Source: a virus
IMG/VR virus record: IMGVR_UViG_3300044825_000517
Span: 1 to 38,632 of that record
Direction: 5' to 3' (one strand)
DNA length: 38,632 bases
The notes beneath the pieces are model-generated. The model ran no database searches. It had not been told where the DNA came from and was given only the letters and a program-made list of their open reading frames with translations. Both the position numbers and the translations under genes were made by a program. How positions within the stretch are numbered: position 1 is the first letter of the stretch; each line of letters begins with the position of its first letter. Shown here piece after piece: positions 35,704 through 36,596 of this stretch.

Positions 35704-36018
35704 ATGAGCGGTAAATCCCCGACGCAACGGTCATTAGAAAAGCTACGTGCTGAGGGTTATCTCTGTCAAATCGTGGAGCGCTGGAACCCTCATGCCAAGA
35801 TCAGGCAAGACCTATTCGGGATAGGCGACATACTGGCTATAAAGGCCGGGGAAACGCTACTGGTACAAACCACAAGCCGAGGTAACGTTGCTGCCAGAGT
35901 AACCAAAATACAAGAATCCGAGCATCTGTCTACGATCCTGGCGGCAGGCTGGAAGATCACCGTTCACGGATGGGGAAAGCTAAAGGCAGGATGGACTTGC
36001 AAGATTGTGGATTTCTAA
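35704..36018 (+). CDS. PD-(D/E)XK-like nuclease-fold phage protein
   Basis: 104 residues. SPTQRSLEKLRAEGYLCQIV, ERWNPHAKIRQDLFGIGDIL and AIKAGETLLVQTTSRGNVAA with ARVTKI. The order D..GxxD.LA followed by a strand with VQTT is the pattern of small PD-(D/E)XK phage nuclease-like proteins in which the usual ExK is replaced by QxT. The replacement makes catalysis uncertain. Starts the rightward early block. Its stop codon is directly followed by the -10 box of a promoter for the small RNA. Confidence 0.65.
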   Translation: MSGKSPTQRSLEKLRAEGYLCQIVERWNPHAKIRQDLFGIGDILAIKAGETLLVQTTSRGNVAARVTKIQESEHLSTILAAGWKITVHGWGKLKAGWTCKIVDF

Positions 36019-36024
36019 TACAAT
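35997..36024 (+). promoter_or_regulatory. sigma70-like promoter for the small RNA
   Basis: -35 TTGCAA at 35997-36002 and -10 TACAAT at 36019-36024, spaced 16 bp. The -10 has five of six consensus bases, the -35 four of six. Predicted start is near 36031, at GTCGG. The box lies immediately after the stop of the upstream gene, so this is a separate start for the RNA unit. Confidence 0.55.
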
Positions 36025-36030
36025 AAAAGG

Positions 36031-36176
36031 GTCGGTGTGGCAACCGGCAGAGCTGAGTACAACCCCAGAGTATTTAGGTGGGGCTTGTGTGGTCACAAGG
36101 TCTTACTCAGCAGACTGCGTGATTGCCCAACGCCAAAGGGCCTTGCCCCTCCTAAGTGTTCTGGGGTTTTTCTTTT
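36031..36176 (+). ncRNA. structured small RNA, C4-antisense-like architecture
   Basis: About 146 nt with promoter, fold and terminator. P1: GCTGAGTA (36052-36059) with TACTCAGC (36104-36111), 8 bp perfect. Inside it P2: CCCCA (36063-36067) with TGGGG (36079-36083), 11-nt loop; P3: CTTGTG (36084-36089) with CACAAG (36094-36099), 4-nt loop. P2 and P3 adjoin without a gap, so they may stack. Segment 36061-36083 is complementary to 36146-36168 in 22 of 23 positions (three G-U). A closing stem with two hairpins plus a downstream complement is how phage C4 antisense RNAs are built; family membership is unproven. No convincing coding frame fits. Confidence 0.7.
36146..36176 (+). terminator. terminator of the small RNA, loop complementary to P2 loop
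   Basis: CCCC (36146-36149) with GGGG (36163-36166), 13-nt loop, then TTTTTCTTTT (36167-36176). The loop is complementary to the P2 loop at 36068-36078 over 11 positions. The whole element can pair instead with 36061-36083, so folding of the RNA and termination may be linked. Confidence 0.7.
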
Positions 36177-36359
36177 GGTAGCCGACCGTACTCCGAGCGT
36201 TATCAAGATCCTGCATGGGATGCGCGGAAGAAAACACCGGCTGGCGAAACACCCCGTTTCATGCCGATCCAGACTGTCAGTGAGGTACTGGGCGAAGCCT
36301 CTTGTTCATGGGTGGGACAAGCAAGAGGTGGAGAGAATCGCTGGCTTCGGCTGTACTAG
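36156..36359 (+). CDS. doubtful small ORF overlapping the RNA terminator
   Basis: 67 codons from GTG 36156, which lies inside the terminator loop and has no ribosome site. From residue 9 it reads SRPYSERYQDPAWDARKKTP, AGETPRFMPIQTVSEVLGEA and ends GGENRWLRLY. Composition is protein-like, but no family was recognised and the start is poor. If real it might begin elsewhere, for example downstream of the terminator by an unusual start. Confidence 0.25.
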   Translation: MFWGFSFGSRPYSERYQDPAWDARKKTPAGETPRFMPIQTVSEVLGEASCSWVGQARGGENRWLRLY

Positions 36360-36422
36360 GCAGGGAACATCCAGAAGCGACCCCTGCTGGGTAAGGTGAT
36401 GGCTACCACCCTTGGGGGAACT
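36177..36422. other. 246 bases without a well supported gene
   Basis: Contains inverted repeat CCTCTTG (36298-36304) with CAAGAGG (36322-36328), which can alternatively pair through CTTGT (36301-36305) with ACAAG (36317-36321). Two competing weak reading frames cross it (36037-36399 and 36156-36359). It lies just before replication-type genes, so an origin or a regulatory leader is possible; nothing is decisive. Confidence 0.4.
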
Positions 36423-36596
36423 ATGCCCAAAACTAAAGAAATACGCTTATCTGCTGAAATCAACCATTCATCAGCCCAAGAAACAAAACTAAACACTGCT
36501 CCTAAATTCCGATCTAGACTTTCTTTGTCGCAACTACCGGGAGAAATAAATTGGAAGGTTTCGAGGAGTTCTGGCAACAGTACCCACGAAAGGTAG
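36423..36596 (+). CDS. possible small hypothetical protein
   Basis: 57 residues from ATG 36423 with GGGGGAA at 36413-36419. PKTKEIRLSAEINHSSAQET and LNTAPKFRSRLSLSQLPGEI, Ser/Lys-rich, no family. The last 15 codons overlap the next gene in another frame. A good ribosome site is the main support; it may be only a leader for the next gene. Confidence 0.35.
   Translation: MPKTKEIRLSAEINHSSAQETKLNTAPKFRSRLSLSQLPGEINWKVSRSSGNSTHER

Follow-up and report, generated by a model that had tools for sequence, protein, structure and literature searches.

The region between positions 36031 and 36176 of the window, the whole of a 38.6-kb tailed-phage record, specifies an RNA, element A, that sequence comparison confirmed to be real and conserved. 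The fold that its homologues appear to conserve is a long branched terminator hairpin, followed by a U-tract, whose apical loop holds a hypervariable segment, x'. A second hypervariable segment, x, lies upstream of this hairpin and is matched in each homologue by that homologue's own x'. Directly downstream is another structured RNA, X, to which A is coupled. The reading that we tentatively prefer is that A may act as an attenuator of transcription and form the 5' domain of a phage noncoding RNA locus in two parts (promoter, A, and X), with type-specific self-recognition.

RESULTS

Setting and parts of element A

The nearest isolate by terminase is Methylophilaceae phage P19250A (66% identity). 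Its operon layout is similar to that of the window; no A-type match was found in it, and its small gene at the matching place has no similarity to the window gene next to element A. In the window, leftward recombination genes (ERF, SSB, and YqaJ nuclease) occupy 33.0 to 35.3 kb, and a rightward unit begins with a 104-codon open reading frame (ORF) at 35704-36018 that is conserved in 201 viral stretches. Element A, which a preliminary description had placed between two operons, is located directly 3' of this first rightward ORF. The ORF is small, has no Pfam match, and looks by eye like a PD-(D/E)XK type nuclease. At least four kinds of RNA cassettes are exchanged at the site immediately 3' of it. 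The genes 3' of the cassettes are exchanged as well (L181, L182, and L122), and several of them resemble, by eye, HNH endonucleases or replication proteins.

The promoter-like box, closing stem, pairing over 22 of 23 positions, and hairpin with T-run that had been described from the window sequence are all present where they were placed (Table 1). The 8-bp closing stem is exact, and the 22 paired positions of the longer helix include three G-U pairs. The MFE of the element is -67.9 kcal/mol, compared with -47.7 ± 3.9 kcal/mol for its shuffles (z = -5.1; 0 of 200 as low). The P1 loop, UGGC, could pair by eye with GCCA in the loop of S5; both are invariant.

Table 1. Features of element A and the adjoining 5' part of X
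Feature	Position	Strand	Remarks
Promoter-like site TTGCAA-16-TACAAT	35997-36024	+	9/12 matches; RNA start expected near 36030-36031
P0, 5' strand, GGTCGGT	36030-36036	+	Complementary to 36181-36187; overlaps 5' strand of P1
Hairpin P1 (GUCGGU/ACCGGC)	36031-36048	+	2/6 pairs with two-sided changes
Segment x, GCTGAGTA	36052-36059	+	Hypervariable; complementary to x'
Long terminator stem S1/S2, 5' strand	36061-36083	+	7/22 pairs with two-sided changes in alignment A4
Inner hairpin S3/S4	36091-36124	+	36091-36096 with 36119-36124, 36099-36103 with 36112-36116; 4/11 pairs with two-sided changes
Segment x', TACTCAGC	36104-36111	+	Entire apical loop of S4; complement of x
Hairpin S5 (GCCC/GGGC)	36125-36141	+	Inner three-way junction; 1/4 pairs with two-sided changes
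Long terminator stem S1/S2, 3' strand	36146-36168	+	Pairs with 36061-36083
U-tract TTTTTCTTTT	36167-36176	+	Putative termination site, directly 3' of hairpin
P0, 3' strand, GCCGACC	36181-36187	+	5' edge of X; pairs with 36030-36036
Structured RNA region X, alpha type	36187-36425	+	~240 nt, directly 3' of U-tract; not in Rfam

By itself, the promoter-like site is weak evidence, because shuffles of the 1-kb region yield 0.8 such sites on average. A transcript start near 36030-36031 is plausible on comparative grounds, since homologues with other flanks show a -10-like box approximately 10 to 15 nt upstream of the element wherever the flank was inspected, with one criterion applied loosely. At the other end, the element has the stable hairpin and following U-tract of an intrinsic terminator. 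This arrangement is conserved in alignment A1 of the class-A homologues, and GGGGTTTT of the U-tract is invariant in 14 of 14 A1 sequences. A simple terminator scan listed nothing on the plus strand; in our reading, its loop limit of 3 to 8 nt excludes a branched hairpin such as this one. Together, these features support the claim of an undescribed structured phage RNA with its own promoter-like box and a terminator-like end within the fold. Within the RNA, A1 contains indels of 1 and 2 nt, which rule out a protein frame.

Homologues conserve a branched terminator hairpin

Pattern scans of IMG/VR yielded 14 distinct full-length versions of the element, the window's included, which we call class A. 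For this set, identical copies were collapsed, L259, L268, and L269 were dropped as partial, and L266, which matched the pattern and was unrelated, was also dropped. The pattern GCTGAGTANAACCCC occurred in at least 119 stretches, and 7 of those listed have the closing stem. The class-A unit spans approximately 146 nt, from GTCGG to the U-tract, and its flanks vary.

Comparison of these sequences and their relatives indicates that what they conserve is the long, branched fold of the terminator hairpin, in which x' forms the apical loop: 14 of its 43 pairs change on both sides in alignment A4, against 5.1 ± 1.4 pairs in shuffles (0 of 500 reach 14) and 1 to 3 pairs in slid structures. A4 comprises 23 distinct rows, five F types (see below) among them, and was fitted to the model, so that it leans towards the model's structure. 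In A1 alone, whose 14 sequences are close to one another, two-sided changes outside x:x' occur in 3 of the 43 pairs. Covariation, the preliminary description's own criterion, was thus found.

It was not seen in the two hairpins, P2 and P3, that had been drawn inside the closing stem. Among the 14 homologues, two-sided changes occur in 0 of 23 pairs of these C4-like arms; P2 is invariant and so carries no information, and in 4 of 14 homologues the outermost pair of P3 is disrupted. The loops of P2 and the terminator, proposed to kiss, are in fact parts of the two strands of the one conserved long stem. The suggestion of two competing pairings holds, as x:x' versus the long stem. When pseudoknots are ignored, the closed terminator is more stable, by 6 to 18 kcal/mol, than the best nested fold that contains x:x' in each of the 14 homologues.

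The segments x and x' are hypervariable and change together

What had been described as the closing stem, x with x', is the most variable part of an element whose background is approximately 93% identical. Its complementarity stands, being kept in the homologues; its hypervariability had been missed. The mean pairwise difference in class A is 0.54 in x and 0.30 in x', compared with 0.068 elsewhere. Segment x, which sits 3' of the first hairpin, has 8 different sequences among the 14 homologues, and every one is matched by its own x', which lies between an invariant GTCT and an invariant AGAC; both segments are swapped wholesale. The x/x' types are GCTGAGTA/TACTCAGC, GAACGAAGAA/TTCTTCGTTC, GAATCGAGAA/TTCTCGATTC, GAGCGAAGA/TTTTCGCTC, GAGTGAAGGA/TTCTTCACTC, GCTAAGG/CCTTAGC, GAAACAAGA/TCTTGTTTC, and CCCCTGCAAG/TTTGTAGGGG, with some G-U pairs among the eight. 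Permutation of the partners equaled the observed pairing in 0 of 20,000 trials; this count covers 11 combinations, including misread x' strings of L255 and L258, which leave the best pairing unaffected.

Relatives with the same plan form a large, diverse set

The preliminary description missed both the large and diverse set to which the element belongs and its coupling to a second RNA immediately downstream. A covariance model of class A, the E-values of which are rough, matched elements that we call F type at E values of 3e-13 to 7e-10 and others, E type, at 6e-7 to 1e-2. The same model also matches the reverse strand of class-A elements at 5e-8 to 3e-2, because the long stem is nearly palindromic. 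Since these reverse-strand matches score as well as those to the E type, the kinship of the E type rests on position and plan and not on E-values, whereas the F-type values stand above this noise. Alignment A3, which mixes matches from both strands, was excluded from all counts.

Two more types, B and C, in which the class-A model finds nothing, occur behind the same upstream gene. In the best 80 of the 201 loci with that gene, an A element directly follows it in 5, a B element in 15 (one cut short), and a C element in 6; an int-alpA-like RNA follows in 52, nothing in 1, and 1 locus is cut off. The 52 comprise 50 assigned by script and 2 assigned by eye (L159 and L162), and 8 of them were confirmed with Rfam. 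The same principle recurs in B and C, where the terminator hairpin contains an internal segment that is the complement of the first hairpin's loop, again with many different matching pairs.

The diverse relatives keep a common plan: a promoter-like box, a leader segment, a terminator hairpin containing the complement of the leader, and a U-tract. We compared the leader with the interior of its own terminator hairpin in 34 distinct pairs, which derive from 61 loci with a recognized start and U-tract. A score of at least 7 was reached by 32 of the 34 (mean, 8.6), compared with 32% when leaders were exchanged (mean, 6.1) and 33% when they were shuffled. The start motifs were written after the loci had been viewed, and 6 of 67 loci were omitted (L352, L368, L369, L379, L381, and L396).

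In the finished RNA, both segments are predicted to be accessible, because the fold with x:x' is less stable and because the mean unpaired probabilities of the two segments in the 34 pairs are 0.71 and 0.76, against 0.33 for the whole RNA. The segments are predicted to be more unpaired than their RNA's own mean in 33 and 31 of the 34 pairs, respectively. In class A alone, x is predicted to be less exposed (0.32 to 0.65) than x' (0.44 to 1.00).

Element A is coupled to a second structured RNA, X

Scans for two X patterns returned 59 and 32 stretches. Of 111 pattern places, 13 were dropped, the start of X being unrecognized or the upstream sequence too short; 98 were kept, giving 67 distinct loci, many of them near relatives. 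A recognized start and U-tract lie upstream of X in 61 of these loci. Among the other six, L352 has such an element by eye, and none was recognized in L368, L369, L379, L381, and L396.

X occurs in an alpha type, found in the window, and a beta type, which by eye have their 5' edge in common. Two-sided changes occur in 14 of 50 predicted pairs of X alpha (9 sequences) and in 12 of 26 pairs of X beta (30 sequences; alignment A2, which holds 30 of 33 X sequences and omits L302, L387, and L398). The MFE of the X stretch alone is ordinary (z = +0.5). X beta contains an invariant hairpin, CCGGUGCAAAUCCG (CCGGTGCAAATCCG), that in our own reading has the look of a T-loop. Further examples of X are found at L193:4433-4682, L250:3287-3536, and L381:8594-8843.

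The first nucleotides of the element and the 5' edge of X can form a helix, P0. They are complementary with a score of at least 6 in 46 of the 67 loci, compared with 12.7% when the edge was taken from another locus and 12.6% when it was shuffled; the same score is reached by 23 of 36 distinct segment pairs. These numbers argue that A and X belong together. Three X sequences without an A-type element (L368, L381, and L387) have, by eye, a short hairpin at the same place, so that, in view of this hairpin and the P0 complementarity, A looks like an insert within the first helix of a longer RNA. A-, B-, and E-type elements also precede noncoding-looking stretches other than X alpha and beta (by eye, at L182:4290, L254:5561, and L249:3290), and there the downstream stretch is again complementary, by eye, to the 5' end of the element.

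The unit is gained and lost at a second site

The unit also occurs next to the terminase gene terL. Of 261 relatives by terL, the best 80 were compared; in 40 of these, 30 to 45 nt separate terL from the start of the next large gene. An A+X unit lies between terL and the next gene in L270, L303, L304, L329, and L335 (by script) and in L310 (by eye), and an F-type unit does so in L302, L322, and L323; several of these loci are contigs already found by pattern. The gap is therefore filled in some relatives and empty in others. Its edges differ between filled and empty sites, and hence no precise insertion boundary can be drawn. Where it was read, the unit at this site has the orientation opposite to that of the late genes. 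Its own strand showed no gene downstream in this setting, which would leave X as its sole possible output there.

Beyond IMG/VR, exact patterns for A and X gave 0 matches in 84,980 bacterial species genomes, a search that diverged copies would escape. Searches of INPHARED cultured phages and of plasmids with blastn returned nothing for X beta and X gamma and only short, chance-level matches (E values of 0.4 to 6) for A with X alpha and for B.

Comparison with known RNAs

A and X had no Rfam match in the stretches searched; in 35950-36450, the sole hit at an E value of ≤10 was a plant microRNA model on the A hairpin. A full-text literature search with a conserved 11-mer of X returned unrelated subjects only, and one on terminator or pseudoknot phage RNAs gave no title describing the element, which does not prove that no such description exists.

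The preliminary description had suggested kinship with the C4 antisense RNAs. The Rfam C4 model (RF01695) found no match in the window at the gathering threshold or at an E value of ≤10, and none in G000; in the P1 control it scored 68.8 bits. The c4-a1b1 model (RF03163) likewise found no match at gathering or at an E value of ≤10 in 35950-36450, and its P1 control scored 51 bits. The C4 RNAs of P1 and P7 are like element A in their type-specific pairing. They and c4-a1b1 have in common with it that they are phage RNAs with self-complementary segments in one transcript; they differ in that the conserved fold of the element is a branched terminator hairpin, with the complement placed within the terminator. 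In P1, the antisense RNA C4 is described as regulating ant (PMC8201110), and both c4 antisense RNA and c4-a1b1 are listed by Weinberg 2010 (PMC2864571). We looked for a C4-style downstream target as exact 8-mers of the x' complement, on either strand, in the loci of 13 elements. Besides x itself, such sites were scattered and about as frequent as expected by chance (sense-strand examples are L260:72 and L257:2526 and 13077), and no ant/icd-like target was found.

The int-alpA RNA model (RF02996) had no match in the window and matched 10 of 17 relatives in the same search. The int-alpA-like RNAs occupy the same place behind the same gene (see above), with a different fold and no terminator seen. 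In these RNAs (L120 to L199; e.g., L130, L129, and L152), a variable loop has its complement a short way downstream; the score is at least 6 in 18 of 18 distinct cases (mean, 7.3), compared with 37% and a mean of 5.1 when loops are exchanged. In a second window further downstream, the score was not above the control (5.4 versus 5.0). By eye, this complement often coincides in part with the next gene's ribosome-binding site, which would make the RNA a C4-like translational regulator.

GOLLD and ROOL are large structured RNAs with no known protein partner and are much bigger than A or X; neither is among the Rfam matches to these stretches. The idea that X is an omega RNA was examined with the HEARO model (RF02033). 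It had no match in the window, but control genomes gave none either, and none was found at an E value of ≤1 in 8 X-bearing loci.

DISCUSSION

If element A is an attenuator, the promoter at 36 kb would start a transcript whose first part folds into P1, followed by x and then by the branched terminator hairpin that presents x' at its tip. In the growing chain, x could pair with the emerging x'; closure of the long stem would then be hindered, and polymerase would read into X and, where genes follow, beyond it. In the released 146-nt RNA the long stem would be closed, leaving both x and x' exposed. Such a short RNA could bind x or x' of nascent chains of its own type, which would free the terminator and turn X off. 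The level of this RNA, and thus the number of phage genomes of the same type, would set the expression of X, and other x/x' types would be undisturbed. We consider it unlikely that the locus goes further and is an exchangeable system of two RNAs that has no protein to itself, in which a self-recognizing attenuator and its output X would make up a protein-free quorum or superinfection sensor; with sense and antisense in one RNA, each phage type would then count only its own genomes.

Several observations are in keeping with attenuation: the long terminator stem covaries, x:x' complementarity is well above controls, both segments are predicted to be exposed, and the unit behaves as a cassette both behind the same upstream gene and at the terL site. 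Plasmid pT181 offers a precedent. Its antisense RNA is transcribed from the other strand, whereas in the element sense and antisense would be one RNA; the likeness lies in the proposed logic. In both cases, matching RNA segments would decide whether a leader terminator closes, and specificity can diverge. The pT181 work (PMC3753616) describes transcription attenuators switched by matching RNA, of which mutually independent sets can be made. It also reports that altered loop-linear contacts, which have the geometry of x-x', gave no mutually independent attenuators; on this account we weighed attenuation lower and its structural rival, described below, higher. Further points count against an attenuator. 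P0 can form only in the read-through RNA, an indication that this molecule has a function of its own, and 21 of the 67 loci fall below the P0 threshold. Types B and C differ in geometry: the 5' hairpin loop holds the variable segment, and an internal bulge holds its partner. No two-sided changes in P2 or P3 support the x:x' state, and the energy comparison that disfavors it ignores pseudoknots.

The structural rival, which we regard as possible though somewhat unlikely, is that A is the folded 5' domain of a single structural RNA, A-X, of approximately 395 nt, inserted in the loop of P0, the first helix of X. On this reading, x:x' and the P1-loop contact would be tertiary contacts within an RNA that is compact or oligomeric, with the U-rich stretch serving as a linker or a weak terminator. 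The P0 complementarity, the two-sided changes in X, and the small hairpin seen by eye in L387, L381, and L368 where the A-type element is missing all speak for such an RNA. Against it, the two segments lie at opposite ends of a stem that we estimate at about 35 bp, x at its base and x' at its tip, so x:x' and the stem could not both form in one molecule unless the inner hairpin folds back. Moreover, a U-tract follows the strong stem in all A1 sequences, and hypervariability is unexpected for a mere scaffold.

It is quite doubtful that A is instead a free-standing, trans-acting small RNA that makes its host immune to superinfecting phages when their x/x' type is the same, in the manner of the C4 of P1 and P7 without being one, with X simply a neighbor. 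The promoter-like box, the terminator-like end, the exposed hypervariable segments, and the exchangeability of the cassette would all suit such an RNA. Against it, the 8-mer search in the loci of 13 elements gave, besides x, scattered sites at about chance level; A is tied to X; and neither an integrase nor a repressor was present among the 10 window ORFs scanned with Pfam, in a record that may be incomplete.

That A does no more than terminate the upstream gene, as a plain if uncommonly elaborate intrinsic terminator whose complementarity is neutral or due to chance, would fit its position 3' of ORF 35704-36018 and its terminal U-tract. We consider this very improbable: the promoter-like box is kept in other gene settings, such as between terL and the next gene, and x:x' complementarity is well above the exchange controls. 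For membership in the C4 or c4-a1b1 family speaks a closing stem with two hairpins that is drawable in this one sequence. At the level of the Rfam models, this reading can be dismissed almost entirely, since neither model matched 35950-36450 even at an E value of ≤10, both recognized P1, and the arms lack two-sided changes.

If the attenuator reading is true, these elements would constitute a natural family of RNA attenuators in uncultured phages, represented in this sample alone by 34 distinct complementary pairs, and the sensing by a phage of its own kind through RNA alone would become directly testable. Even if the regulation proves to be different, A-type elements and X are two covarying RNA families, absent from Rfam 15, that occur in many viral contigs.
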